From Desulfovibrio piger ATCC 29098 (lineage in GTDB: Bacteria; Desulfobacterota; Desulfovibrionia; Desulfovibrionales; Desulfovibrionaceae), in contig NZ_DS996355.1 in assembly GCF_000156375.1 (NCBI RefSeq), positions 1 to 64,000 on the forward strand: a stretch of 64,000 nucleotides of DNA, given 5' to 3'. How positions within the stretch are numbered: the first letter of the stretch is position 1; each line of letters opens with the position of its first letter. Below, piece after piece: positions 2,532-26,419 of this stretch. Under the pieces are notes generated by a model. The model did not search any database and was not told the origin of the DNA. It worked only from the letters and a program-made list of their open reading frames with translations. The translations under genes were made by a program, and so were the position numbers.

Positions 2532-3290
2532 ATGTTCGACCAGCCTTTTGTCCGGGATTCCTTTATCCAGCAGATCGATCCGCGTATGCGCGTACTGCTG
2601 GCGGTTCTGCTGGCGGTGGCCCTGGCCCTGTTGCGGCAGATGACGGCCTGCTGTCTGGGGCTGGGGTTGGGCTGCGTGCTGCTGGGATTGGCGCAGGCTC
2701 CCCTGGGGCCTCTGTGGCGGCGTCTGGTGGCTATCAACATGTTCATCCTGTTCCTGTGGCTGGTCACGCCCTGGACGACGCCGGGGGCCGTAGTCTGGCA
2801 GTGGCATTTCATCCAAGTCAGCAGGGAAGGGGTGTATCTTTCCCTGCTGGTGACACTCAAGTCCAATGCCATAGCCTGTGTTTTTCTGGCCCTGGTGGCT
2901 AGCTTGCCCGCCGCGACCTTAGGGCATGCCCTGGAGCGTCTGGGCTGTCCTGACAAGCTGGTCTTCCTCTTCCTGTTTACCGGTCGTTATATCCATTTAT
3001 TGGCTGGGGAATGGCAGGATTTGATGATGGCGGCCCGTCTGCGCGGGTTCCGGCCGCGTACGAATCTGCATACGTACAGAACAGTCTCCTCCTTGTTGGG
3101 GCTGCTGCTGGTGCGCAGCCATGACCGTGCCCAGCGTACGCACGAGGCTATGCGTCTGCGTGGTTTTTCTGGACGTTTTCATTCGCTGGATAGCTTTTGC
3201 CTGCGCCCGGTGGATGTGCATTTTGCACTGGCCACGGTATGCTGTCTGGCCTGTATCCTGTGGTTTGAGGCGGGAGGAATCATCCTGTGA
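2532..3290 (+). CDS. cbiQ: Ni/Co ECF transporter transmembrane component CbiQ
   Basis: 252-residue T-component of the energy-coupling-factor transporter. Multiple TM segments are present (about residues 15-45, 60-78, 95-125, 225-245). The two cytoplasmic coupling motifs of the family, which dock to the ATPase, are visible as AARLRGFRPR (about 165-174) and AMRLRGFSGR (about 203-212). Its last codons overlap the GTG start of cbiO. Confidence 0.9.
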   Translation: MFDQPFVRDSFIQQIDPRMRVLLAVLLAVALALLRQMTACCLGLGLGCVLLGLAQAPLGPLWRRLVAINMFILFLWLVTPWTTPGAVVWQWHFIQVSREGVYLSLLVTLKSNAIACVFLALVASLPAATLGHALERLGCPDKLVFLFLFTGRYIHLLAGEWQDLMMAARLRGFRPRTNLHTYRTVSSLLGLLLVRSHDRAQRTHEAMRLRGFSGRFHSLDSFCLRPVDVHFALATVCCLACILWFEAGGIIL

Positions 3291-4048
3291 GCCGGTCGGT
3301 GAGCGTTGAGGAAAATATTTTCAGTCTGGAACAGGTGGAGGTGACCTATACGGGTACGCGTGGGCCGCGCCGTGTTCTGCAAGATGTCTCTTTCGCCTTG
3401 GCCCCCGGGCAGCGGATAGGCCTTTATGGACCCAACGGCAGCGGTAAGACGACCCTGTTTCGCTGTATCACCGGCTTGGTACGGCCCAGTAAGGGACTGG
3501 TCCGTTTCCACGGGAAGGCCCTGCATGACGAAAAGGGTTTCCATGCCCTACGCTGCAAGGTGGGTTTTGTGCTCCAGCATGCTGATGATCAGCTCTTTTT
3601 TCCCACGGTACTGGAGGATGTAGCCTTCGGACCGCTCAATCTGGGCCTTTCAGCGGCGGAAGCCGGGGAACAGGCCCGGGCCACGCTGCAGCGTTTGGGC
3701 CTGTCCGGTTTTGAGCAGCGTCTGACACACCACCTGTCGGGCGGAGAAAAAAAACTGGTGGCACTGGCCACGGTGTTGGCCATGGATCCTGAGGCGCTGT
3801 TGCTGGACGAACCCACCAATGACCTGGATCAGGAGGCCCGCCAGCGGCTCATCGACATCTTATGCGATCTGCCCACGGCCAGGATGGTCATTTCCCATGA
3901 CTGGGACTTCCTTTCCCGGGTCTGCGGGGAATACCGGACGATCCGTGAGGGGCACCTGCTGGCTTGCGCGCCGGACGTCCGTCACAGTCACGAGCATGTC
4001 CATCCGTTGGGAGGGGAGCCACATTGGCATCTTTCCATAGCGGATTGA
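3287..4048 (+). CDS. cbiO: Ni/Co ECF transporter ATP-binding protein CbiO
   Basis: 253-residue ABC ATPase that powers metal uptake with CbiQ and CbiM. Walker A is GPNGSGKTT (about residues 47-55), the Q-loop is FVLQHADDQLF, the signature is LSGGEKKL (about 149-156) and Walker B is LLLDEPTNDLD (about 170-180). A His-rich tail (RHSHEHVHPLGGEPHWH) may bind or sense metal. It starts with GTG at 3287, overlapping cbiQ by four bases. The operon ends in a strong terminator just downstream. Confidence 0.92.
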   Translation: MSRSVSVEENIFSLEQVEVTYTGTRGPRRVLQDVSFALAPGQRIGLYGPNGSGKTTLFRCITGLVRPSKGLVRFHGKALHDEKGFHALRCKVGFVLQHADDQLFFPTVLEDVAFGPLNLGLSAAEAGEQARATLQRLGLSGFEQRLTHHLSGGEKKLVALATVLAMDPEALLLDEPTNDLDQEARQRLIDILCDLPTARMVISHDWDFLSRVCGEYRTIREGHLLACAPDVRHSHEHVHPLGGEPHWHLSIAD

Positions 4049-4052
4049 AGGG

Positions 4053-4095
4053 GAACTGCCCGGGGCGCCACGATCGGACCCCGGGCAGTTCTTGT
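4053..4095 (+). terminator. Terminator of the Ni/Co operon
   Basis: AACTGCCCGGG and CCCGGGCAGTT form a long GC-rich stem (4054-4090), followed by TCTTGT. The first U-run is short, but the stem is strong and lies directly after cbiO. Confidence 0.75.
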
Positions 4096-4159
4096 CTAGG
4101 GGCTGCCGTCGGAATGCGCTGCATCGTGAGAGCTGTCGGACACGGCGATTCTTTGCATA

Positions 4160-4190
4160 AAAAGAAAAAGCCCGTACGGTGACGGGCTTG
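4160..4190 (-). terminator. Terminator of the zinc-motif membrane protein gene
   Basis: AAGCCCGT (4168-4175) and ACGGGCTT (4182-4189) form a hairpin. On the minus strand it is followed by a T-rich run (complement of 4160-4169). Confidence 0.75.
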
Positions 4191-16858: not shown

Positions 16859-16877
16859 GGGTGACAGATGGGTGACA
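16859..16877 (+). promoter_or_regulatory. Paired GGGTGACA sites at the left prophage end
   Basis: GGGTGACA at 16859-16866 and 16870-16877, 11 bases apart in direct orientation, overlapping the integrase start codon. The same pair with the same spacing occurs at 55142-55160. Candidate arm-type integrase binding sites that could also repress int. Confidence 0.55.
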
Positions 16878-18211
16878 AATATAGATGGCAGACGATCCCC
16901 GGGAAAGAAGGGGTGCTGTTCCGAGAGCATCCTACGCGTAAAAATGGCCGAGTCCCTGACCGCTGTCTTTCCATCCGTTACAGGGCTGGAGAGGGAAAGC
17001 GCATCCATGAGTCTTTGGGCTGGACCAGTGAAGGATGGACGGTCGCCAAGGCCGTCGCCTTGCTGCGGGAGCTGAAGGAGAACATCCGCACAGGAAAGCG
17101 CCCGCAGAGCCTGCGTGAGATGAGGGCCATGGCGGAGGAGCAGAAGCAGCGCGAGGCCCAGCTGGCCAGCAGGGCAAAAATCGAAGGGCTGACTTTCCGT
17201 GAATTGGCAGAGTATTACGGACGCTGGTGTCTTCAGAATCGAGCCAGCGGCGCTCAGGTATGCCAGATCCTGGAGATGCACATACTGCCTGTCCTTGGAG
17301 ATGTGCCCGCCAAGGACATCACGCCGCAGGACGTAGCGGAGCTGGGCCGGATCGTGTCCGCCAAAAGACCTCTCTCCGGGCGCAACAAAAATACGCCCGG
17401 AGCCTGCCTGTCTGCCCAGACCGTCCTGCACATCCTTAAGACAGTGCGCGAAGTCTTCAATTTTGCCCTGGAGACGCCTGCTCCCGGAGCGCCAGGCACC
17501 ATGCTGTTCAGCGGCACGAATCCGGCTATCCTGAGCCGCCGCAACCGCGCCATCGTCCTGCCCAAGACAGACAGCCGCCGACTGCGTGTCCTGAGTGACA
17601 CGGAGATCACAGAGCTGTTGGCCTTTCGTGGGCGGCGCGAGGAATATGGCGAATTGCATGACATGATCCTTTTCTCGCTGGACACGGGCTTGCGGGCCGG
17701 AGAGCTGGTCAACCTGCGCTGCGAAAGCTGCGATGCCGACAGCGGGACGATCCGCGTACTGGTAGGGGCCAAAGACAGCCTGCGCTCCACGAAGGGAGGG
17801 GAAACGCGCATCCTCAGAGCGGGGCGTCTGTATCCCGAAAGCCTCAACATGCTGCGCGAACGTCTGGGAAGGCTCAAGACAGGTTTTCTTTTTCCCGGGC
17901 CGGACGGCAGAGAGCGTGATGCCAATGGCCTCAACAGGGCCATGCGGCGCATCATGGACAAGCTCGGCTTCAATGATGGTGTCACCGATCCGCGCAACCG
18001 GGTGGTCTGGCATACCCTGCGACACACGTTCGCCACACGGATGCTGGAGGCCGGACTGGACATTTATGCCCTGAAGACGCTCATGGGCCACGCCAGTGTC
18101 ACGACCACGGAGATCTATCTCCATATCTGCGACATGGACAAGCGCCGGGCCGCTCTGGCCAAGGCAGAGCTGGCCCGGCAAAAGCTGGTTACAGGGACGG
18201 GGGAACAATGA
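16868..18211 (+). CDS. int: Prophage tyrosine integrase
   Basis: 447-residue site-specific recombinase. N-terminal arm-binding-like region (1-100, with WTSEGWTVAKAVALL), core-binding SAM-like domain (about 105-200), catalytic domain with Arg in TGLRAGEL, Lys in STKGGETR, HTLRHTF, LMGHASV and Tyr in TEIYLHI. It sits next to attL and reads inward. Its end overlaps the convergent candidate excisionase gene by 23 bp. Start follows AAGGTGGGTGACAG, so the RBS lies inside the GGGTGACA repeats. Confidence 0.95.
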   Translation: MGDKYRWQTIPGKEGVLFREHPTRKNGRVPDRCLSIRYRAGEGKRIHESLGWTSEGWTVAKAVALLRELKENIRTGKRPQSLREMRAMAEEQKQREAQLASRAKIEGLTFRELAEYYGRWCLQNRASGAQVCQILEMHILPVLGDVPAKDITPQDVAELGRIVSAKRPLSGRNKNTPGACLSAQTVLHILKTVREVFNFALETPAPGAPGTMLFSGTNPAILSRRNRAIVLPKTDSRRLRVLSDTEITELLAFRGRREEYGELHDMILFSLDTGLRAGELVNLRCESCDADSGTIRVLVGAKDSLRSTKGGETRILRAGRLYPESLNMLRERLGRLKTGFLFPGPDGRERDANGLNRAMRRIMDKLGFNDGVTDPRNRVVWHTLRHTFATRMLEAGLDIYALKTLMGHASVTTTEIYLHICDMDKRRAALAKAELARQKLVTGTGEQ

Positions 18212-18458
18212 GCTTCACTCCCTTGGCTTCAAGATAAGCGAGGAAGAAGGCCGTCGGGTAGACGACAGCGTCGCCCATCTTCATGCGGAACTTGGGGCCA
18301 TTCCCCAGATAGTCATCGTTAGAGACGCTCTTGGGGCTGATGGCACCGCCGGTGAAATACCTGACCTCCTTCCTGGCGATCATGGGAGGAAGCTGGCTCA
18401 GGAAGCAGCCCAGCACCTTCAGCTGGGGCGGATCGGGGATCTGGGTGACATTACTCAT
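18189..18458 (-). CDS. Small HTH protein, candidate excisionase
   Basis: 89-residue protein. Residues about 25-85 look like an AlpA/excisionase-type winged helix: FTGGAISPKSVSNDDYLGNGP, then VVYPTAFFLAYLE, matching the pattern in which a helix-turn-helix is followed by a positively charged wing and a hydrophobic helix. It is the last gene of the leftward early operon, right beside int and convergent with it, the usual place for a directionality factor. ATG at 18458 chosen for GGAGGTGAGAGC upstream; ATGA overlap with the preceding gene. Confidence 0.6.
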   Translation of the reverse strand: MSNVTQIPDPPQLKVLGCFLSQLPPMIARKEVRYFTGGAISPKSVSNDDYLGNGPKFRMKMGDAVVYPTAFFLAYLEAKGVKLIVPPSL

Positions 18459-18883
18459 GCTCTCACCTCCACAAAGCGCGTCAGCGCCGCATCGCGGGCG
18501 ATGCCCCACGGGCGCTTGCGCATGGTAAGCCCGGCGTCGCGGGCGGCCCCCTCCAGATCTTCGGGGCGGCCGTGCCAGTGGAACTGTGCCTGGGCGACAA
18601 CAGACAAGAATTTGAAGCCGAAGCTGCGATCCGTCTTGTAACGAGGGAGCACGAAGCGCAAAACCTCGCGCAGGGCCGCCTCGGCAGGACGGGTCGCTCC
18701 CTGGTCAGGGACAGCGTGCATCTTGGTGTAAAAGGGGCATGTCATGGCCAGACGTTGCCCCACGGGGCAGGCCAGGCAGAGCCCCAGCTCCTGTCGGGAG
18801 GGAGTGCTGCAGATGATGCCACAGCACTCCCCGGAGCTGATGACGCGCCCCAGACGGGGGCAGGTCACCAGAGCGCTGTTCAT
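18455..18883 (-). CDS. Phage hypothetical protein with Cys-rich N-terminus
   Basis: 142-residue protein. The first 50 residues hold several Cys (TCPRLG, GECCGIIC, CLACPVG, MTCPF), suggesting one or two zinc knuckles; the rest is mixed alpha/beta with FVLPRYKTDRSFGFKFLSVV. I do not recognise the family. Start at 18883 gives an ATGA overlap with the MazG-like gene, so the genes are translationally coupled. Confidence 0.6.
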   Translation of the reverse strand: MNSALVTCPRLGRVISSGECCGIICSTPSRQELGLCLACPVGQRLAMTCPFYTKMHAVPDQGATRPAEAALREVLRFVLPRYKTDRSFGFKFLSVVAQAQFHWHGRPEDLEGAARDAGLTMRKRPWGIARDAALTRFVEVRA

Positions 18884-19188
18884 GCCGGATCCTCTCCGGA
18901 GACGGGCTCCGCTGGCAGAAGGGCGCGCAGGCGTTCGCACTTGAGCGCGACACTGGCGTCGAGCTCATCGGCCATGAAGGGCTCGGTGCGCAACTGGTCG
19001 ATCATCACCAGCACGTCGCCGATGGCATCCACCACGTCCTCACGGGAGCCGCAGCGGCCGCGGCGCAGGTGACTGATGGCCACGATGGCCTCGGCCAGTT
19101 CTTCCTGCAGGATCTGCAGCTGGGCATCCAGACCAAAGTGACGCACGGCCTGTCTGGCGAGGGATGCATCCATCAACAGGGTAGGCAT
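18880..19188 (-). CDS. MazG-like phage protein (NTP pyrophosphohydrolase fold)
   Basis: 102-residue all-alpha protein. The motif ILQEELAEAIVAI (about 27-39) followed by VVDAIGDVLVMIDQL (about 52-66) corresponds to the EExxE and ExxD-like metal-binding helices of MazG/dUTPase-type pyrophosphohydrolases. Phage MazG-like proteins can hydrolyse dNTPs or lower alarmone levels; the substrate here is unknown. Part of the leftward early operon. Confidence 0.65.
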   Translation of the reverse strand: MPTLLMDASLARQAVRHFGLDAQLQILQEELAEAIVAISHLRRGRCGSREDVVDAIGDVLVMIDQLRTEPFMADELDASVALKCERLRALLPAEPVSGEDPA

Positions 19189-19197
19189 ACGGACCTC

Positions 19198-19476
19198 CTA
19201 CTGCCGGGGAAGGATATCGTCGGCGAGAGGGGCTTTTTTGAGATGCGCCACGATCTCGCCCAGGGCCGGCGCGCCGAACTCCGCCACCTCGGACATGCAA
19301 AGCGCTCCGGACGCGGAGCGGAAGCTCAGGTGCGATTCTGCAGCATCCCCGAAGGCGATCATCACGCAGATCATCCCGCGGGCGCCTTCCTGCTTGCCCC
19401 GATCCATGAACTCCTTGACGCCGCGCAGGATATCGGCGCGTTTCTGGCCGATGAAGGGGGAGATATCGTCGTCCAT
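19198..19476 (-). CDS. Phage hypothetical protein
   Basis: 92-residue protein of unknown family with QKRADILRGVKEFMDRGKQE followed by a hydrophobic GMICVMIAFGD segment. ATG at 19476 chosen (GAGGTGAGT before it) over a GTG two codons upstream. Nine bases before the MazG-like gene. Confidence 0.55.
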   Translation of the reverse strand: MDDDISPFIGQKRADILRGVKEFMDRGKQEGARGMICVMIAFGDAAESHLSFRSASGALCMSEVAEFGAPALGEIVAHLKKAPLADDILPRQ

Positions 19477-19478
19477 AC

Positions 19479-19994
19479 TCACCTCGTAAGGTCAAAATAT
19501 ATTTCCGTCCCGCGCTCATCGCAGCCCGGGAAGGCACGCATCAGAGCCGTCACCAGTGTGTCCGTTGTCTGGCAGGCATAGCGCCATGCGCCCGTGCGGG
19601 CATAGAGCGGACAGGTGGCTCTGGCATCGTCCATCAGGGTCAGGGCCGCCGCCAGCATGGCGCAGGCCAGAAAAGCCCGGCGCTCAGGCGGCAGCCCTGT
19701 TTTTTTGAGGTAGGGGCGCAGGCGGTTCTCCATTTTTTCCAGCGCATACTCGACCTCGCGCCGCCTCTTGGCGCGGGCAGCGTATCCCGTGGCCACAACT
19801 GCCAGCCACTTGCAGATCTTTGTGTATTGCTCCGGAGCGGCCTTTTCAAAAATCGGCTTCCAGACGCGAAGGACATGGAACAGGACAGAGATGGCCACCT
19901 TGCACTTTTGTGCCTGGCGCAGTTCCGGCAGGTCGGGGATCATATCCGCCACGGCCCGCAGCTTTGCCCGTTCTTCAGGAGACAGAGCACCCAT
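19479..19994 (-). CDS. Phage hypothetical alpha-helical protein
   Basis: 171-residue mostly helical, basic protein of unknown function with a central hydrophobic helix (FLACAMLAAALTLMDDA) and an Arg/Lys-rich segment (ARAKRRREVEYALEKM). Good RBS GGAGGAAGC before the ATG. Early operon member. Confidence 0.55.
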   Translation of the reverse strand: MGALSPEERAKLRAVADMIPDLPELRQAQKCKVAISVLFHVLRVWKPIFEKAAPEQYTKICKWLAVVATGYAARAKRRREVEYALEKMENRLRPYLKKTGLPPERRAFLACAMLAAALTLMDDARATCPLYARTGAWRYACQTTDTLVTALMRAFPGCDERGTEIYFDLTR

Positions 19995-20002
19995 GCTTCC
20001 TC

Positions 20003-20164
20003 CTACGCCACGGCTGCTGCCCGGCGCTGTCCGGCCTGCTGCAGGAATGCCAGCAGGGCACGATGGGTCATGCTCAGGCGCTGGGGCGGCAGGCCGCGCA
20101 GGCGCACCAGATAGCTGGCTGTCTTGACAGGGGCCGCGGGCTTTGCATACAGTTCTTGAGACAT
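20003..20164 (-). CDS. 53-residue phage protein
   Basis: Small basic protein starting MSQELYAKPAAPVK and containing YLVRLRGLPPQRLSM and AFLQQAGQRRAAAVA. AAGGAGAGTACT precedes its ATG at 20164, a clear ribosome-binding site, and it fits tightly into the leftward early operon. Function unknown. Confidence 0.6.
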   Translation of the reverse strand: MSQELYAKPAAPVKTASYLVRLRGLPPQRLSMTHRALLAFLQQAGQRRAAAVA

Positions 20165-20188
20165 AGTACTCTCCTTTGCGAGGGTTCA

Positions 20189-20225
20189 GGCCTCGGGCGG
20201 TACCAGCGCCCGGGGCCTTTTTTGT
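20189..20225 (+). terminator. Hairpin with plus-strand T-run inside the early operon
   Basis: GGCC-T-CGGGCG pairs with CGCCCG-G-GGCC, then TTTTTT on the plus strand. The genes around it are on the minus strand, so it would terminate an antisense transcript, or act only as an intercistronic hairpin. Confidence 0.45.
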
Positions 20226-20701
20226 TATTCGGGGGATCGCTGGCGGTCATGGACCTCGCCCGCCAGCGCCACCAGCTGCATGATGGCCTCCACGGCCTCG
20301 TGGCTCAGGCGGCGCATGTCCTGCAGCTCTTCCGCCGTGATCTTGCCGTCCGCGATCTGCTCCGCCGCCGCCACGGCGAACTCCCCGAACTCGCGGATGC
20401 TGACGCTCAGGCCCGTGACAAGCTGCACCGGCCCGTCATCCGGGAGGCGCAGGGGCACGAAGGCACCGCCGCGCTGCCTGGCCAGGAAGACCAGCGGCAG
20501 ATCGCTCTCGCAGACGTCCATGAGCGGCAGGAGCAGCTCCGCGCCCAGCTTGTGGCCGGGTTGCTGCGAGAGCTCGCTCATCAGGGTGGCGTAGGGCTTG
20601 CCCACCAGGTCCGCCACCGTGCGGGCATCCAGGCCAGAGGGGGCCGCCTTGACCATGCCGTGGACCACGGCCGTCAGCGAAGGATAGGGAGGACGGTTCA
20701 T
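20225..20701 (-). CDS. Phage regulatory protein CII (CP76-like)
   Basis: 158-residue protein resembling the CP76/CII family of phage regulators: N-terminal helix-turn-helix-like part (LDARTVADLVGKPYATLMSEL, cut here by length), PGHKLGAELLLPLMDVCESD, and a helical C-terminus. These proteins influence the lysis-lysogeny decision. Second gene of the leftward early operon, 69 bp behind the Cro-like gene. Confidence 0.72.
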   Translation of the reverse strand: MNRPPYPSLTAVVHGMVKAAPSGLDARTVADLVGKPYATLMSELSQQPGHKLGAELLLPLMDVCESDLPLVFLARQRGGAFVPLRLPDDGPVQLVTGLSVSIREFGEFAVAAAEQIADGKITAEELQDMRRLSHEAVEAIMQLVALAGEVHDRQRSPE

Positions 20702-20770
20702 GCGAAAATCTCGTTATTGTTTGCGTGGTTCATTCATCGAAAATGCGATATGCGGACACAATGGCGCGGA

Positions 20771-21034
20771 TCAGCGCGTGCGGGGCTTGGGGCCGGTGGG
20801 CACATCCTCGGCCCTGGGCAGGAGCTCCAGGGGGATGTCCAGCCGGTAGCGCAGGACACGGTGATGCCGCACGGGCATGCGCTCGTTGCGCAAGCTCTTG
20901 CTGACGGAACGGCCAGATATGCCGAGGAATTTTCCAATAGATTCAAAGGTGATGCCGTGCTCCAGCATCCAGACCTTGAGCTTGAGAAAGCGCTGCTCTT
21001 GCCTGCCTGTGGGGGTTAAGATAAACTGCTGCAT
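20771..21034 (-). CDS. Cro-like HTH regulator
   Basis: 87-residue DNA-binding protein. Residues about 27-50 form a helix-turn-helix (ITFESIGKFLGISGRSVSKS), preceded by a long helix and followed by a basic tail with PTGPKPRTR. It is divergent from the repressor gene and shares the 25-bp operator. ATG at 21034 is chosen for GAGGATTTT just upstream; the frame extends further through the operator, but those codons mirror the palindrome and are not coding. Confidence 0.72.
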   Translation of the reverse strand: MQQFILTPTGRQEQRFLKLKVWMLEHGITFESIGKFLGISGRSVSKSLRNERMPVRHHRVLRYRLDIPLELLPRAEDVPTGPKPRTR

Positions 21035-21085
21035 AAAATCCTCTTTTTGTTCGGCGGGGATATTGAATGTGTATGTATGTGGGGA

Positions 21086-21110
21086 AAATATGTATGATTC
21101 ATACATATTT
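21086..21110. promoter_or_regulatory. 25-bp palindromic repressor operator
   Basis: Perfect palindrome with half-site AAATATGTATGA around a central T (21098). It lies in the divergent repressor/cro region and fills the space between the -35 and -10 of the leftward promoter. A partial copy (GTATGTATGT) is at 21071-21080. Confidence 0.8.
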
Positions 21111-21115
21111 GTCAA
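21087..21115 (-). promoter_or_regulatory. Leftward early (lytic) promoter
   Basis: On the minus strand TTGACA (21115-21110) and CATATT (21092-21087) with a 17-base spacer. The operator palindrome covers the whole spacer and the -10, so repressor binding would exclude RNA polymerase. Confidence 0.65.
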
Positions 21116-21128
21116 CGCAGATTCAGAG

Positions 21129-21680
21129 ATGAAAATGAACAGAACAAATAATTCTGAATTATACGAGCGTGTTACGGCGGCGGGAAAATTTTTCGGCGGC
21201 CTGCCCGCATTCGCGGAGATGATCGGGGTCCAGTACCGCACCTTCCACGCCTATCTGAGCGCCAAGCGCCAGCACAACCTGTGGCCGCTGCTGCCCACCA
21301 TGCTGGAGGCCTTTCCGCGCCTGTCACGGCAATGGCTGTATTTTGGCGAAGGCCCCATGCTCATCGGGCATGGCACGCCCCTGGACAGGCCGGTGCCCCT
21401 GCAGGAGATCGCGGCCGCGGCCGAAGCCATGGCCGCCGAAGCGGGCGGGACCTGGGGCGATGTGCTGACCTACATCGTGGATGCCGCACGGGCGGAAGGG
21501 GAGAAGCGGGAGCCGGTGGCCGACAGCCGCCAGATCCAGGACTTGCAGGAAAAGCTGCTGGCGGCGCAGGCAAAGATCATCCAGTTGCAGGATGAGCTGC
21601 TGACCAGGCAGAAGGAAGGGCACGCAGGCGCCCCCAAGGCCGCGCCTGCCCGTATTGGCGACAGTGCTGCCCGTTTGTAG
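21129..21680 (+). CDS. Prophage CI-type repressor
   Basis: 183-residue regulator. N-terminal HTH (about 10-60) in ELYERVTAAGKFFGGLPAFA then MIGVQYRTFHAYLSAKR, followed by the motif RQWLYFGEGPM often seen in phage repressors. The C-terminal third is coiled-coil (IQDLQEKLLAAQAKIIQLQD) and there is no LexA-type peptidase, so induction would not be by RecA-driven self-cleavage. ATG at 21129 or 21135; the upstream frame crosses the operator and is not coding. Confidence 0.75.
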   Translation: MKMNRTNNSELYERVTAAGKFFGGLPAFAEMIGVQYRTFHAYLSAKRQHNLWPLLPTMLEAFPRLSRQWLYFGEGPMLIGHGTPLDRPVPLQEIAAAAEAMAAEAGGTWGDVLTYIVDAARAEGEKREPVADSRQIQDLQEKLLAAQAKIIQLQDELLTRQKEGHAGAPKAAPARIGDSAARL

Positions 21681-21750
21681 GGTGGCGGCAGTAGGAGGGG
21701 AGGAAAATGGCGCTTGTCCTTTGTCCGGCGTTCCAAGTAAGGGAGGGAAA

Positions 21751-22521
21751 ATGATGCGGCTCAAGAAAATTTGTGCGTTGGCTGTCTCTTTGTTGTTATT
21801 CCCCTGCCTTGGCCATGCCCAGACCGACGGCCAGCAGCTTATGCAAAAGATGGCAGCCGCCGTGGAGCAGTCCGGCAGCAAGCCTTACGCCATGCCGCTG
21901 GATGAGGCGGAGACAAAAGCCTTGGTGGAATACATGAAGGCCAAGTACAAAAAAGAGTTCGGCAAAGAGCTGACCGATTTGCAGGCTGCCGTCTGGGGCG
22001 GTAGCGCCTGTGGTCTGTACGGAGGCATGAGCATGATCAAAAATGCCTTCAGCGGAAAAGGCAAAGCGGCACAACAGCCCAAGGAAGCCCCCAAGCCCAA
22101 TGTGTGGCCATCCGGCATCAGCGAATATTCACCGAAACTGCTCATGGACAGTTTTGAGGGCAATCAGTTTGCTGCCGAAAAGGAATTGTCCGCCAAAGAG
22201 ATTCTTGTCTGGGGCGAGGTGGATAGCCTCGGCCAGCAGCGCTACTCCCCCACAGGGACTTACTCTGACGGCAGGGATCTACCCTGCATGAAGCTCAAGG
22301 GACTTTTCCACGCCTATTTTGAGGACACGAACGGTCTGGATCTGGCCAAAGTCAACAAAGGCAATGCGGCACTGCTGCTGTGCAGCAAGATTCATTACGG
22401 CAAGTTCTTTGTGCAGGGGATGTGCAAGCCGGTGGCTGTCGGCCAAATGGACAAAGATGGCACATTGCAGCCAATCTTTGTGGACAGGCCGCTTTACGAC
22501 GATCTTCGCAAAGCCAAATAG
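21751..22521 (+). CDS. Secreted OB-fold-like protein, lysogenic conversion candidate
   Basis: 256-residue exported protein: signal peptide (KKICALAVSLLLFPCLGHAQ, about residues 5-24), a helical region, then a beta-rich C-terminal half (about 135-245) with EILVWGEVDSLG, DLPCMKLKGLFHAYF, LAKVNKGNAALLLCSKIHYG and QGMCKPV. The pattern resembles tRNA_anti-like OB-fold proteins. It follows the repressor on the same strand and has its own terminator, so it is probably expressed in the lysogen. ATG at 21751 chosen for GGGAGGG upstream; a second ATG follows immediately. Confidence 0.62.
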   Translation: MMRLKKICALAVSLLLFPCLGHAQTDGQQLMQKMAAAVEQSGSKPYAMPLDEAETKALVEYMKAKYKKEFGKELTDLQAAVWGGSACGLYGGMSMIKNAFSGKGKAAQQPKEAPKPNVWPSGISEYSPKLLMDSFEGNQFAAEKELSAKEILVWGEVDSLGQQRYSPTGTYSDGRDLPCMKLKGLFHAYFEDTNGLDLAKVNKGNAALLLCSKIHYGKFFVQGMCKPVAVGQMDKDGTLQPIFVDRPLYDDLRKAK

Positions 22522-22524
22522 TAC

Positions 22525-22565
22525 AAGCCCCCGCAGGGAATCCCTGCGGGGGCCGTTGTTTTCCT
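22525..22565 (+). terminator. Terminator after secreted protein gene
   Basis: GCCCCCGCAGGGA (22527-22539-22540) pairs perfectly with TCCCTGCGGGGGC, followed by CGTTGTTTT. Confidence 0.82.
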
Positions 22566-22945
22566 ATCCCTCCATGCTCAGATCCAGATACCAGATGCGG
22601 CCGCCACGGCGGTGGCGGACGAAGCGTTCCTGAAGCAGAGCGCCCAGGCGTTTCTGGCTGGGCAAAGGTTCTTTGCTACGGCTGTTCCACCAGACGCGGA
22701 AGCGGTCATAGATGGCCGTGGCCGTAGTTTTCACACCCTTGCTGCTCTGGCAGCATTCCTGCATAAAGTCCCGGATCAGGCCGGCTTCCCTGTCCGCAGG
22801 CAGAAGGGGCTGCTCCGGCGTGCTGGCCACCAGCTCGCAGCAGCGGCAGAAGATGCCCTCCACCTCGGCCATGCTGGTGGCGCCCATGAGGCGGGCGCAC
22901 TGCATGGCGCTGCCAAGGATGCGTTCCCGCAGGGTAGGGCGACAT
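22564..22945 (-). pseudogene. Free-standing D5-type C-terminal winged-helix protein, frameshifted near its start
   Basis: The intact frame from 22905 encodes 113 residues. Its C-terminal part (ATAIYDRFRVWWNSRSKEPL, then SQKRLGALLQERF and RRGGRIWYLDL) matches the C-terminal winged helix of this prophage's own D5 helicase (SDLYDAFCAWF, SQKAFGKMMLERF, RKGGTYYYFGV). The natural start is probably ATG at 22945, coupled (TGATG) to the upstream gene, but it is in another frame. Removing one base in the GGG run at 22937-22939 would give MSPTLRERILGSAMQCARL and a 126-residue protein. So a one-base insertion, or a sequencing error, is likely. If not, an internal ATG at 22905 may be used. Confidence 0.6.
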
Positions 22946-23205
22946 CAGGCATGGCGCACCTCTCCGGCTGTGGGCATGGCCACCAGCTGGCAGCCGCAGC
23001 CCAGGGCGTGCAGTACATCCGCATTGCAGCGGGCCAGCCGGTCACGCTGGGCTTCCAGCCGTGCGGCGCATTCGTCCAGCAGCTCGGCGGCGGCTTCTCG
23101 TTCCAGCGCATCCTCGCGGGAGACATAATCGGCCACCAGCCGCAGACGGGCAGGCAGGACGCGTAGCAATTCGCCAAGATCGCTGAAATCGTGGAACGTG
23201 TTCAT
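22945..23205 (-). CDS. Phage hypothetical helical protein
   Basis: 86-residue, mostly alpha-helical protein with ALEREAAAELLDECAARLEA in its centre and Cys residues near the end (ALGCGCQLVAM). Unknown family. RBS AGAGG upstream of ATG at 23205. Its stop overlaps the start of the next gene as TGATG. Confidence 0.5.
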   Translation of the reverse strand: MNTFHDFSDLGELLRVLPARLRLVADYVSREDALEREAAAELLDECAARLEAQRDRLARCNADVLHALGCGCQLVAMPTAGEVRHA

Positions 23206-23247
23206 AGCAAACCTCTTTGATTGGGGATTTTTGCGCGGAACAAAAAA

Positions 23248-23322
23248 CGGGAGCGAGGCAACGCTCCCCGGCCACTGAGAGGCCGCCGGTCCTTGCGGAT
23301 ACCGGACGTTGCTTCGCTCCCG
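23248..23322. repeat. Structured element copy A
   Basis: Outer stem CGGGAGCGAGGCAACG (23248-23263) with CGTTGCTTCGCTCCCG (23307-23322), one wobble. Inside are two hairpins, GGCC/GGCC (about 23270-23284) and CCGGT (23286-23290) with ACCGG (23301-23305). Copy B follows directly. The shape is a three-way junction. Confidence 0.65.
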
Positions 23323-23330
23323 CGCAAAAA

Positions 23331-23398
23331 AGGCGAAGCAACGCTCCCCGGCTCAAAGAAGGCCGCCAGTCCTCACGGATACTGGACGTTGCTCCGCC
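23331..23398. repeat. Structured element copy B
   Basis: Outer stem GGCGAAGCAACG (23332-23343) with CGTTGCTCCGCC (23387-23398), one mismatch; inner hairpins GGCT/GGCC and CCAGT (23366-23370) with ACTGG (23381-23385). Compared with copy A, the CCGGT/ACCGG stem has changed to CCAGT/ACTGG, a compensatory G-C to A-T change. Confidence 0.65.
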
Positions 23399-23589
23399 AA
23401 TAGATAACCGGCACCACAGGCCGAAGACCTGCCGGTGCGGATGGTGGCAGAAACAAAAAAGACCGCACTTTTCGCCGTGTGGGGCACGGCAAAGGCGACG
23501 GTGACGCCTTCTTTGATTTGGGGAATTTCAGTGTGCCCGGATGGCCGCCAAAGGTCAAGGGGGCTTGCCAAGGGGGGAGGGAACGGCTA

Positions 23590-23628
23590 GAAAAAAGAAG
23601 GCGGCAGGTGCGCGAACACCCGCCGCCG
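23590..23628 (-). terminator. Terminator of small membrane peptide transcript
   Basis: GGCGGCAGGTG (23600-23610) pairs with CACCCGCCGCC (23617-23627, one bulge). On the minus strand it is followed by TTCTTTTTT. Confidence 0.75.
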
Positions 23629-23657
23629 TGGGCACATCCCCCGCGATTAACTGGATC

Positions 23658-23703
23658 GCAAGTTTTGGCCCGGTAAGAGTTGCACCTCCTACCGGGCTAC
23701 TTG
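23658..23703. other. Two-part hairpin downstream of the small peptide gene
   Basis: On the minus strand GCAAGT-A-GCCCGGTA pairs with TACCGGGC-CAAA-ACTTGC. The loop holds GGAGGTG (CACCTCC on the plus strand), a Shine-Dalgarno-like or anti-Shine-Dalgarno sequence depending on strand. Confidence 0.6.
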
Positions 23704-23707
23704 CGTC

Positions 23708-23791
23708 TTAGAGGTTCAACAAGCGAATCACCAAGGCCGCAAGGACGGCGGCCACAAAGGCAGCCAGCACGTCCCGGAGGAAGTGTTTCAT
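23708..23791 (-). CDS. 27-residue hydrophobic peptide, candidate type I toxin
   Basis: Starts MKHFLRDVLAAFVAAVLAAL and ends VIRLLNL: a charged N-terminus followed by one membrane-spanning helix, similar in layout to Ldr/Fst-type toxins (hydrophobic helix ending near xxLLN). RBS AGGAGGG is excellent but flanked by complementary sequence on both sides: CCTCCT immediately upstream (CCTCCTAAAGGAGG) and CTCC just downstream (GGAGGGTACTCC), so it can be hidden in a hairpin. A stable 3' hairpin and a terminator follow. The antitoxin RNA is not located; a plus-strand terminator at 23892-23930 could end an antisense transcript. Alternative: a small phage membrane protein such as a holin-like peptide. 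Confidence 0.55.
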   Translation of the reverse strand: MKHFLRDVLAAFVAAVLAALVIRLLNL

Positions 23792-23891
23792 GGGAGTACC
23801 CTCCTTTAGGAGGATGCGCCCGCCGATGGCCTAGCACAGATGCCTGACAGGCCGCAATCTCCCGCCGGTTGTGGCCCTCAATTATGATGAG

Positions 23892-23930
23892 ACGCCCTGC
23901 AGGAAGTTTCCTTCCTGCGGGGCGTTTTCC
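23892..23930 (+). terminator. Plus-strand terminator between small peptide and 3-TM protein genes
   Basis: ACGCCC-TGCAGGAAG pairs with CTTCCTGC-GGGGCGT, followed by TTTT. No plus-strand gene lies directly upstream, which hints at a noncoding plus-strand RNA across 23650-23900. Confidence 0.7.
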
Positions 23931-23944
23931 GTTGTGGGGGAATC

Positions 23945-23973
23945 TTGTTTCACCCGGAAATAAATGCTACTAT
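23945..23973 (+). promoter_or_regulatory. Promoter of the 3-TM protein gene
   Basis: TTGTTT (23945-23950) and TACTAT (23968-23973) with a 17-base spacer, 50 bases before the ATG. Confidence 0.55.
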
Positions 23974-24023
23974 AGTCATTAAACTATGTTTTGCCCGGCA
24001 TATAGCAAAAGGAGCAAACAGGC

Positions 24024-24953
24024 ATGAACGGTTATTCCCTGTTTTTTGTAGTGATATTCTGTGGTTGTGCTGTCTGGAGCCTTGCCGGGCTGATATTTCC
24101 CAAGGTGCTCGTGGTGGCGCCTCCTGAGCGGAGAACGCGGGGCTATGCCTTTTTCTTCCCTTTGGCTGCTGCGGTTTTCTTTTTTGGGCTTGCTCTGTTC
24201 TGTGACCCTAAGGTTCAGGCCGCCGGTGTCTCTCTTATCTTGTTTGGCGGTATCCCGGCCATGCTGTTATGGCGAAAAATGCACCAGCCGCTCCGCCCTT
24301 GCGAGCTGCTGGCGGCAGCAAAAACAGACAGAGAGCCTGCAAGGGCCTCCAACGACACCCCTGTGGAAACGGACTGTCCTTTCTGCGCGGGTAGGCAGGA
24401 AAAAGAGGGCTACGGCTCTTTTGAAAATTATGAACGCTACCGGGAAGCTTTGGACAAGGCGCTGGATACGACGTCGTGCGGCAAGGCTGCCCTGGACAGA
24501 CTGGATGCCTTGGTGGAAGCGGCCCCTCTTGCAGATCATGAGCTGCTGACAGAGGCTATTGAGGAGTGCTTTTTCCAGCAGTGTGAGTCCAAGCATCCCG
24601 TGGCTGTGGTGCGCCTGTTCGACAAGATGCACCAGGAGCATCCCTGTATGGCGTTCGCCCTGCGGCATGGGGGGCTTGATGAAATGGTCTCCGCCTTCTG
24701 CGAAAGCCTCAGCAATCCCCTGCCGGAAAAGGGACGTGCCAAAAACATCGTGGGGCTTTTGCAATCGGATCACCCGCTGGTCAAGGGTGCCCTGGCATTT
24801 TCTGCGGCCGATATCGCCGACTGGCTGGACGGGGAGTGCGAGGAACTCTGGCCAGGCTGGGAGGCCGGTACCCATGATGAAATGCCCCCGGAAGATTTCA
24901 TCGCGGAAGTGCTGACCTGCCTGAAGGGAGAAAAAGACCCGGCCAGCCTATAA
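24024..24953 (+). CDS. Three-TM prophage protein with large cytoplasmic domain, unknown function
   Basis: 309 residues. Three predicted TM helices in the first 85 residues (about 5-27, 41-59, 66-83), then a soluble acidic helical domain with a CPFC pair (about 118-121), and repeated helix-rich segments such as ALDRLDALVEAAPLADHELL and VVRLFDKMHQEHPCMAF. I do not recognise the family. It has its own promoter and RBS (AAAAGGAGC), reads against the lytic operon and stands directly upstream of the TIR/macro locus (31 bp gap), so it may be a conversion or exclusion gene. Composition is like the rest of the phage, unlike the AT-rich genes that follow. Confidence 0.55.
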   Translation: MNGYSLFFVVIFCGCAVWSLAGLIFPKVLVVAPPERRTRGYAFFFPLAAAVFFFGLALFCDPKVQAAGVSLILFGGIPAMLLWRKMHQPLRPCELLAAAKTDREPARASNDTPVETDCPFCAGRQEKEGYGSFENYERYREALDKALDTTSCGKAALDRLDALVEAAPLADHELLTEAIEECFFQQCESKHPVAVVRLFDKMHQEHPCMAFALRHGGLDEMVSAFCESLSNPLPEKGRAKNIVGLLQSDHPLVKGALAFSAADIADWLDGECEELWPGWEAGTHDEMPPEDFIAEVLTCLKGEKDPASL

Positions 24954-24984
24954 TCCTACCAACCATCTGTCATAGGAGAAAAAA

Positions 24985-25596
24985 ATGAGTAAGCGCATTT
25001 ATATTAGTGCAGATTATGCACCTGACAGTGGAGATCGCGATGTCGTTGAAACGTTAAATAACTGGGGAACTGATAGCTTACATAAGGTTGATTTCGTAGA
25101 TATGGCAAAAGTTGTTTCTGGTAGCGTTGTTAATAGCATGGATGAATGCTATCCATGTGATTTAAAAGCGGAATTTAATAGGCAAATAAATGCTTCTTCT
25201 ATTGTTATTTGCATTATTGGTGATAAAACAGCAACAAGAACAGCTGGAAGCACTTGTTCAAGATTTGGAAAAGATTATTTTTTTGGATGTACATGCACGC
25301 CATATAAACAATCAAGAAATGGAATTAGGGATTGTAAAGTTGATATAACATATCCTGCAATGGGTGAGATTGGAAATATTAATAATTATTCATATTTGAG
25401 ACATGAGTTTGAGCAGGCAAAAATAAAAAATAAGACTATTATTGTTGTCTATAATTCACTAATTAGAGAGCCTAAATGGCTTCCGCACTATATGAAAGAA
25501 TATGAAAGTAGAGCAGAGCCATTTTGGAAAAAAGATGATTATGGAAGAAAAGTTGGTAATTATACTCGAATAAAGGAAGCTCTCGGCTATGTTTAA
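24985..25596 (+). CDS. thsB: TIR-like protein, ThsB-type (candidate type II Thoeris)
   Basis: 203 residues with a TIR-like alpha/beta fold: beta1 KRIYISADY, strand VDFVDM, strand SSIVICIIGDKTATR, and YSYLRHEFEQAKIKNKTIIV, in which Glu141 is the likely catalytic Glu of NAD-cleaving TIRs. The order and spacing fit DUF1863/ThsB. ThsB proteins sense phage and make an ADP-ribose-derived signal that activates ThsA. Gene is strongly AT-rich compared with neighbours, shares an eight-base overlap with the next gene, and has RBS AGGAG. Assignment is by pattern, not alignment. Confidence 0.72.
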   Translation: MSKRIYISADYAPDSGDRDVVETLNNWGTDSLHKVDFVDMAKVVSGSVVNSMDECYPCDLKAEFNRQINASSIVICIIGDKTATRTAGSTCSRFGKDYFFGCTCTPYKQSRNGIRDCKVDITYPAMGEIGNINNYSYLRHEFEQAKIKNKTIIVVYNSLIREPKWLPHYMKEYESRAEPFWKKDDYGRKVGNYTRIKEALGYV

Positions 25597-26419
25597 AAAA
25601 ATTTTTCGTCATATGTCATGGGCTTTTGGCATAACATCAGCTATATTTGCTTTTGTTTCTGACAGTATTTTTAAAAAAATTTTTATTATTGAGAATATAA
25701 AAGCAAATATTTCTGATGATTTTAAGGTTGCGATAATTAAAATTTTATTGTTTATTTTTATATTTTTGATAATCAAAATTATTGTATTTATATATAAAAA
25801 ATTTAGAAGCACTGTTGTTATAAAAAAAATAGGCTATTCAATATATATCGAATACGGAGATATCCTTAGTAAGTGTAATGGAAAGCGGATCATAAACTTT
25901 GATGAATGCTTCTCAACAGATGTCGGTGAAAAAACTTACGAAATAAATAAAACATCACTTTGTGGTCAGTATATTCAAAAGACGAATATAAAAAATCATC
26001 AGATACGTAAATTGTTAAAACAGTATAACATTAAAGCATCTGCAACAAATTCTCTATTTCAAAATAAAATAAGATATGAGTCAGGGACCTTACTTCCTAA
26101 TGGAGATGATTTGTTGTTGGCTTTTGCAAAATTAAATAAAGATGGTTTAGGATGTATGAGTTATGACGAGTTTATTGAATGTCTGAATCTTCTATGGAAA
26201 GAAATAGATAAATACTATGGAGGAAAAGATGTCTATATGCCAATATTAGGTTCAGGAGTTACTCGGATGTGGGATGAGTCACTTACGCAACAAAAAATAC
26301 TTGAAATAATATTAAAATCATATAGTCTGACACGATATAAATTAAAGCTTCCATGTAAATTGCATATTGTGTGTAAGGAACGTGAAGGGTTTTCCTTAAA
26401 CGAAATAGAGAATTATTGA
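25589..26419 (+). CDS. thsA: TM-macro effector, ThsA-type (candidate type II Thoeris)
   Basis: 276 residues: two TM helices (about 12-34 and 47-69, the second very hydrophobic, KILLFIFIFLIIKIIVFIY), then a macro-like domain (about 80-270) with YIEYGDIL (84-93 region), GTLLPNGDDLLLAFAKL, and VYMPILGSGVTR (about 215-226), the usual macro-domain phosphate-binding loop. This TM-macro layout next to a ThsB-like TIR is the known macro-domain variant of Thoeris, in which the signal nucleotide binds the macro domain and the effector damages the membrane. Very AT-rich. The gene has no obvious own promoter and is coupled to thsB. Confidence 0.72.
   Translation: MFKKIFRHMSWAFGITSAIFAFVSDSIFKKIFIIENIKANISDDFKVAIIKILLFIFIFLIIKIIVFIYKKFRSTVVIKKIGYSIYIEYGDILSKCNGKRIINFDECFSTDVGEKTYEINKTSLCGQYIQKTNIKNHQIRKLLKQYNIKASATNSLFQNKIRYESGTLLPNGDDLLLAFAKLNKDGLGCMSYDEFIECLNLLWKEIDKYYGGKDVYMPILGSGVTRMWDESLTQQKILEIILKSYSLTRYKLKLPCKLHIVCKEREGFSLNEIENY

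Follow-up and report, generated by a model that had tools for sequence, protein, structure and literature searches.

Type I toxin-antitoxin systems had been described only from Proteobacteria, Firmicutes and Tenericutes before a cyanobacterial case in 2025, according to PMC12390103. Several of them offer close comparisons for a small element in the 64,000-nt stretch of Desulfovibrio piger ATCC 29098 analysed here (contig NZ_DS996355.1, positions 1 to 64,000; hereafter, the window). As set out in PMC3874152 and PMC8309996, antisense RNAs that overlap at the 3' end are known from bsrG/SR4, txpA/RatA and fst. The first two are prophage systems of Bacillus subtilis, and they resemble the predicted D. 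piger module in prophage location, in a small membrane toxin and in having the antisense overlap at the 3' end of the toxin message; bsrG/SR4 resembles it further in its convergent promoters, and SR4 also sequesters the Shine-Dalgarno sequence (SD). Unlike the D. piger peptide, BsrG has 38 residues, and the putative antisense target in D. piger includes an element that pairs with the leader. The par locus of pAD1 (Fst, RNA I and RNA II), as described in PMC7472228, likewise has convergent promoters, a 5' stem-loop that hides the SD and an antisense RNA with a second region able to act near the SD, which in D. piger would be a leader-like segment. The D. piger family differs in having no PXXXG motif, charged tail or shared bidirectional terminator, and its antisense/leader likeness stems from complementarity between the leader and a 3' element rather than from the direct repeats DRa and DRb.

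Two further systems are similarly informative. In aapA/IsoA of Helicobacter pylori, as described in PMC6733600, an mRNA of ~225 nt encodes a 30-residue peptide, several copies occur per genome, and the message carries an upstream anti-SD, an anti-SD within the ORF and a long-distance interaction (LDI) between its 5' and 3' ends, all of which have counterparts in our locus. IsoA is encoded opposite the ORF, whereas the conserved antisense promoter of the D. piger family lies downstream of the terminator; likewise, in AapA the SD is closed off by the LDI and the message is activated by trimming of its 3' end, whereas the D. piger 3' element is predicted to free the SD. Finally, the type I toxins of Clostridioides difficile (CD0977.1 and relatives, model NF047374) are, according to PMC7699646, prophage-borne small membrane toxins with an AGGAGG ribosome-binding site (RBS) like ours, but of 34-47 residues and with a lysine-rich tail.

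We propose that the window element is a type I toxin-antitoxin-like module, a reading to which we assign a probability of roughly 85%. The sequence-only reading had marked 23658-23791 as a candidate type I toxin gene with an RBS flanked by complementary sequence. The 27-residue ORF is indeed present at 23708..23791 on the minus strand, encoding MKHFLRDVLAAFVAAVLAALVIRLLNL, and is part of a larger conserved module, of which that interval leaves out the leader, 3' element, terminator and antisense promoter. The SD (GGAGGG, 23804-23799) lies 7 nt 5' of the ATG and has its complement on both sides: CCTCC (23813-23809), four bases upstream, forms with it a leader hairpin that closes the RBS, and a second anti-SD, CTTCCTCC (23783-23776), falls in codons 3-6. 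Folding of the leader (23792..23821, minus, with its predicted 5' end near 23821) bore out the concealment, returning the RBS-closing hairpin at -20.3 kcal/mol, with a z of -2.1 and 5 of 200 shuffles folding equally well or better. A weak candidate sense promoter, picked by eye, spans 23828..23857 of the minus strand (-35 TTGCGG at 23857-23852, an 18-nt spacer, and an extended -10, TGC-TAGGCC, with TAGGCC at 23833-23828).

Downstream of the ORF, and on the same strand, a 12-bp hairpin (GCCCGGTAGGAG / CTCTTACCGGGC, 23668..23697) is predicted by folding and marked by compensatory changes. It is as stable as had been claimed (-23.5 kcal/mol, z -5.95, none of 200 shuffles as good), although most of the GGAGG that was said to form an SD-like loop falls within the 5' stem arm instead of a free loop. 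There follow a small hairpin, GCGAT...ATCGC (23643..23659, -5.5 kcal/mol); the 3' element GGGGGATGTGCCC (23630..23642), whose pairing with leader positions 23821-23809 comprises 13 contiguous pairs, two of them G-U; and an intrinsic terminator with a 12-bp stem and a T tail (23590..23627). The full RNA (23591-23821) folds at -123.5 kcal/mol, with a z of -7.98. GC-rich DNA yields many hairpins and short ORFs, and a rival account is a chance ORF beside coincidental hairpins. This account is refuted by conservation and also opposed by the controls reported below, and we regard its probability as negligible: the element is beyond chance because of the full-RNA fold score, the substitution pattern of the ORF and the occurrence of homologues with the same layout in many genomes.

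The family to which the element belongs is large. We collected 101 members, mostly from Desulfovibrionaceae and in both phage and chromosomal settings, by pooling 104 candidates with identical copies removed and dropping three (two pieces of a frameshifted copy in L050 and one partial in L116). The L050 copy, at L050:217 of a Mailhella metagenome-assembled genome, is an apparently frameshifted toxin ORF behind an intact leader. Each member corresponds to a predicted RNA of ~230 nt, in which a leader hairpin that hides the SD precedes the ORF and is followed, beyond the stop codon, by a strong 3' hairpin, a leader-complementary 3' element and a terminator; the terminator is clear in 59 of the 101 (energy of -14 kcal/mol or lower, starting within 130 nt of the stop codon; hereafter, the strict set) and is present in 80 by a loose rule. 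Tandem copies occur at 11 of 84 loci.

Searches of increasing breadth traced the distribution of these members. The window peptide was matched in 26 of 101 genomes (E<=1), with three copies in the D. piger genome itself, and a profile of 21 members matched 78 of 288 genomes of the taxonomic family (E<=0.01); in 17 of the 78 the single match falls within a frame of 256-545 residues and is probably unrelated. Matches were found in 25 of 199 genomes of a class-wide sample, all from the same taxonomic family except one from the same order (G328), and in 4 of 297 genomes of a phylum-wide sample, the D. piger genome included. Pattern scans returned 15 stretches in viral contigs, 13 of which are family members by inspection, and 44 in genomes, of which 32 are members, some weak or broken. 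The genera named for these records include Desulfovibrio, Bilophila, Mailhella, Candidatus Adiutrix and Desulfobulbus. A tblastn search of phage and plasmid collections with the 27-residue peptide gave no match. Distant members, at six loci from G328 and three genomes of the phylum sample (G472, G583 and G563; the G583 peptide, at L171, is one already in the collection as L068), all retain the leader hairpin and the 3' element, with duplexes of -21.4 to -42.3 kcal/mol, and by eye all six have a -35/-10 pair on the strand facing the toxin RNA. A clear GC-rich terminator is present at four of the six and absent from the two G472 loci.

The 27-residue ORF evolves as a coding sequence. Across 67 unique ORFs of 84 nt, pN/pS is 0.41 in the ORF frame, whereas the remaining forward frames give 1.26 and 1.38; on the reverse strand it is 0.56 in the frame that shares the third positions of the ORF and 1.36 and 1.39 in the others. 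The best 17-residue hydropathy of 93 peptides has a median of 2.55 and a minimum of 1.44. By these two measures the product is a small, hydrophobic peptide under coding selection, as expected of a type I toxin.

The RNA anatomy is conserved alongside the peptide. A typical leader reads G-run ... CTCC-GAAA-GGAGG ... CCC/T-ATG; after the ORF come a GC-rich hairpin, an element resembling CGGGGGACNTGCCCC and then the terminator. Exceptions exist, such as the leader of L086, which has no anti-SD. L026:444-706 and L172 pair a GGGGG SD with a CCCCC anti-SD, so that nature has supplied a compensatory change in this leader hairpin. Compensatory changes were also sought in 53 sequences, a subset that we chose from 82 representatives and aligned without reference to structure: for 17 of 20 predicted pairs, one sequence or more had both sides changed with the pair preserved, most of these pairs being in the 3' hairpin and terminator. 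RNAalifold recovered from this alignment the 3' hairpin, the terminator and part of the leader hairpin and did not find the LDI, which was therefore examined through the energies of cognate and non-cognate pairings. Among the 82 representatives (collapsed at 90% identity, with short-flank members and L096, L079 and L021 left out), the duplex between leader and 3' element averages -30.2 kcal/mol for cognate and -23.9 kcal/mol for non-cognate combinations, a comparison that does not fully remove relatedness. The cognate 3' element has a median rank of 5 of 82; it ranks worse than 25 for 13 leaders, the worst being 70.

Predicted folds of the 59 strict-set RNAs place the SD in competing pairings. 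An LDI of at least 8 pairs forms in 49 of the 59 full-length folds and is missing from the best folds of the other 10; the SD is paired within the ORF in 45, and 44 show both features together. When the 3' element is removed, the SD pairs with the leader in 53 of 59. These folds, together with conservation, predict for the family the occluded SD of type I toxin mRNAs. As a computed tendency, opening the region from SD to AUG has a median cost of 8.3 kcal/mol for the full RNA against 13.2 kcal/mol after 3' truncation, the full RNA being cheaper in 55 of 59; with the 3' element and terminator blocked, as they would be by an antisense duplex, the median is 13.0 kcal/mol and opening is dearer in 56 of 59. 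The pairing of leader and 3' element is thus predicted to make the RBS ~4.8 kcal/mol easier to open. For the window RNA, two minimum-energy folds disagree on the SD partner (codons 4-6 or the spacer), and the SD is unpaired in the centroid fold; all of these folds of GC-rich RNA are predictions only. Since opening is cheaper in the full RNA and dearer when the RNA is truncated or blocked, the LDI is predicted to loosen the start site rather than lock it.

These energies bear on two readings of the LDI within the same module. We tentatively propose, at somewhat less than even odds, a reversal of the LDI logic published for AapA, in which completion of the transcript would switch the toxin mRNA on, because the 3' element would strip the anti-SD off the SD, and in which the antitoxin would be a leader-mimicking antisense RNA that takes the 3' element ~150 nt from the start codon. 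If so, the cell would read "message complete, antisense absent" before any toxin is made. It is also possible, if a little more doubtful, that the LDI marks an inert, locked form as in aapA/IsoA and hok/Sok, with the SD held by codons 3-6 and nuclease trimming at the 5' or 3' end as the activating step. The co-occurrence of SD-in-ORF pairing and LDI in 44 of 59 folds agrees with a locked form, and the parts match the AapA3 scheme of upstream anti-SD, ORF anti-SD and 5'-3' LDI in PMC6733600. Removing the leader side also makes the RBS slightly cheaper to open (median 7.8 vs 8.3 kcal/mol, in 42 of 59). Against a locked form, the 3' element pairs with the anti-SD strand and not with the SD, and in 55 of 59 the RBS is predicted to become costlier to open once the 3' end is trimmed. 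An SD-sequestering LDI of the aapA/IsoA type is accordingly not what we see in the predicted folds, where the conserved LDI engages the anti-SD strand and the SD opens more cheaply.

On the opposite strand, a sigma-70-like promoter recurs just past the toxin terminator. In the window it spans 23565..23593 of the plus strand (TTGCCA at 23565-23570, a 17-nt spacer, TAGAAA at 23588-23593), scores 9/12 and has a predicted start near 23600. A promoter scoring at least 8/12 is found in 46 of 54 non-redundant members (the strict 59 after removal of near-identical stretches), as against 9.7% of shuffles and 3.7% of the other strand of the same stretches; the spacer is 17 nt in 40 of the 46, and TTGAC occurs in 34 of the 54 members where 2.2 are expected. 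The -10 score profits from the A-run opposite the terminator T-run, an advantage that the -35 and the spacing do not share. As a control, 456 other terminators of these loci were scanned, of which 20 had a promoter of this kind and 31 had TTGAC. Members without a clear terminator, scanned in a wider, fixed stretch of 90 nt, carry the promoter in 31 of 35 cases, as against 13% of shuffles and 4 of 35 for the other strand; copies of one tandem array make up five of these members. In all, 6 of the 101 members were too short for the combined scan of both groups. In that five-copy array, with units of 300-307 nt, TTGACA stands at the promoter position of every unit. The sense promoter is weaker: 44% of 86 members score at least 8 (shuffles 16%, reverse strand 14%), and the window copy falls below the threshold of the scan, which gave no match there. 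The position of the window candidate fits the family, in which the distance from the end of the -10 to the ATG is most often 36-38 nt. The promoter, terminator and energy tests all used simple scripts of our own.

From the convergent promoter, an antisense RNA over the terminator and 3' element should be made, and its minimal predicted form in the window is 23600..23667 on the plus strand, although the real 3' end may be further on. It would contain an anti-terminator hairpin, a leader-like segment, GGGCACATCCCCC, and the small hairpin, which on this strand is followed by AAGTTTT and is a candidate weak end. Complementarity between the 3' element and the toxin leader accounts for the likeness of this segment to that leader. 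When the antisense strand of 57 members was scanned for hairpin/T-run sites, these were in excess over shuffles 40-80 nt (29 vs 6.0) and 100-120 nt (19 vs 6.0) away from the terminator stem; none occur at 140-200 nt, and there is no excess at 320-340 nt (4 vs 5.0). They fall within the 3' UTR in 26 of the 59 strict members, and no single antisense 3' end stands out. In the window, such sites lie at scan positions 63 (-5.5), 307 (-9.0), 325 (-27.6) and 345 (-12.5). The third is the plus-strand hairpin 23892..23930 that the sequence-only reading had named as a possible end of an antitoxin RNA. Its structure stands (-33 kcal/mol when folded by itself, z -7.1, none of 200 shuffles as good, short T tail), and it is the strongest on the plus strand near the module, though it was not among the sites found by a simple consensus terminator scan. 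It may end the antisense RNA in the D. piger prophage, at ~325 nt, but is not part of the conserved module, since the family shows its excess of sites nearer the stem and none at 320-340 nt. Overall, the earlier view is strengthened as regards a gene of type I toxin character, the occlusion of its RBS and a putative antisense RNA on the other strand, for which the conserved convergent promoter is strong indirect evidence.

The type I toxin-antitoxin-like reading is well supported by anatomy and evolution, through a coding ORF, a conserved RNA architecture, covariation of leader and 3' element and a conserved convergent promoter sequence; the two transcripts, a toxic product, the switch direction and a physiological role are inferred. 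In the proposed mechanism, the sense promoter would yield an mRNA of ~230 nt, and during transcription the predicted leader hairpin (CCTCC:GGAGG) would block ribosomes. Once the 3' end is complete, GGGGGATGTGCCC is predicted to take the leader anti-SD strand; the SD, as a result of this capture, would be held only weakly by codons 3-6 or by the spacer, leaving a more translatable message. The product would be a short membrane helix that harms the cell. In a lysogen, the antisense RNA begun just past the toxin terminator would pair with the terminator and 3' element, leave the leader hairpin closed, shut down translation and perhaps bring RNase III. By analogy with known systems, antisense synthesis would stop on loss of the prophage and the surviving mRNA would be translated.

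The assignment to the Fst/Ldr superfamily that accompanied the original call was rejected on motif and profile tests, taking the superfamily features as given in PMC7472228. PXXXG is present in 0 of 93 peptides. In place of a conserved tryptophan before a highly charged C-terminus, W occurs anywhere in only 26 of 93, and the window peptide ends in RLLNL. The homology check likewise turned up, for one of 5 peptides, a single Ldr_toxin match (E 0.01) at 16.3 bits against a Pfam gathering score of 27. The gene layout agrees in its convergent promoters but not in a shared bidirectional terminator, since the antisense promoter lies beyond the toxin's own terminator. The weak Ldr_toxin match, the convergent promoters and the fact that LdrD is the sole PDB match at E<=1 speak for such a toxin, but we consider an Fst/Ldr-type toxin very improbable.

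Other models gave similarly distant results. At E<=0.01, the C. difficile toxin model NF047374 matched 5 of the 21 peptides scanned, the lowest E being 3.1e-4, but its best score among 5 peptides, 21.1 bits, is below the NCBIfam cutoff of 60. The generic TAT signal model TIGR01409 passed its cutoff in the L010 member (18.3 vs 16.7 bits) and was taken as a chance match. A Pfam scan of 21 peptides at E<=0.01 returned only PAP2, in 2, and no specific toxin model reached its cutoff for the peptides scanned with Pfam and NCBIfam. The window peptide itself has weak matches to PAP2 (E 0.041, Pfam), NF047374 (E 0.084) and phrog_738, of unknown function (E 0.15), the last of which another member matches at 8.4e-5. 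Scans of Pfam, NCBIfam and PHROGs gave no link to the bsrG/SR4 or txpA/RatA toxins. Known Rfam families were also rejected: at gathering score the window contains only two tRNAs and nothing over the toxin RNA, and at E<=1 six loci gave seven matches, none over a listed family member.

The peptide's toxicity is the point at which another account enters, namely that the RNA is a dual-function or regulatory one whose small, non-toxic membrane peptide (a stress or phage regulator) is under antisense control. The toxicity is putative, and some copies sit beside chromosomal housekeeping genes. A short and hydrophobic product, an SD hidden twice, a convergent antisense promoter, copies in tandem and carriage by phages are, however, together typical of type I toxins; LdrD, itself such a toxin, is the sole PDB match at E<=1 (E 0.23). 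We consider a non-toxic regulator unlikely. The NF047374, Ldr_toxin and LdrD matches are weak leanings towards type I toxins.

Phage carriage, which the sequence-only reading had assumed, is supported for all three copies of the genome, whose surroundings are identical to IMG/VR viral contigs over 4.2-8.8 kb. In the window, the region around the toxin gene encodes an integrase at 16868-18211, a regulator resembling CII at 20225-20701 and, at 24985-26419, a Thoeris-like pair; positions 16868-25658 are identical to a viral contig. Such identity extends over 5.2 kb around the second copy (L009), which lies between a Rha-like gene and a 1468-residue ORF, and over 4.2 kb around the third (L010), which lies between terminase-like and portal-like genes, these gene calls being made by sequence reading. 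Across the family, 107 of 124 flanking proteins were scanned, and the best 25 of 164 and of 113 protein families include integrases, terminases, head-tail proteins, primases and endolysins as well as chromosomal genes. The module is not tied to one phage, since its flanks vary between phage and chromosomal genes.

Desulfovibrio was formerly placed in Deltaproteobacteria, and its NCBI phylum is now Thermodesulfobacteriota; the known range of type I systems would for this reason widen. If the module is of type I, members in Desulfovibrio, Bilophila and Mailhella would extend that range, and the prophages of these bacteria would gain a likely addiction module. The family is apparently undescribed: titles and abstract openings, mostly from open-access journals, contained no description of it. 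Its ~100 natural variants, with their covarying parts, provide a direct test bed for the switch.

Finally, three neighbouring features of these prophage-like regions were recorded. The Thoeris-like pair, on the plus strand ~1.2 kb from the toxin ORF, consists of a TIR-like ThsB (PDLC00432, E 2.8e-96; Pfam ThsB_TIR 18.8 bits, below the cutoff of 21.2) and a macro-domain ThsA (PDLC00411, E 2e-129). Upstream of an ORF at 22945-23205, positions 23244-23402 of the minus strand hold two repeats of ~80 nt, each predicted to form a branched fold closed by GCAACG/CGTTGC and followed by a T-run (z -3.4 and -5.2). They are matched in 6 of 61 genomes, D. piger included, and are several times paired ~450-1000 nt apart, for example in G000:C38 at 258152/258672 and 414434/414952. 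The prophage-like region around the second toxin copy contains, at L009:3076-3159 (plus) and just before an ORF at 3199-4185, a match to the Rfam family sRNA-Xcc1 (RF02221) at 60 bits (gathering score 53).
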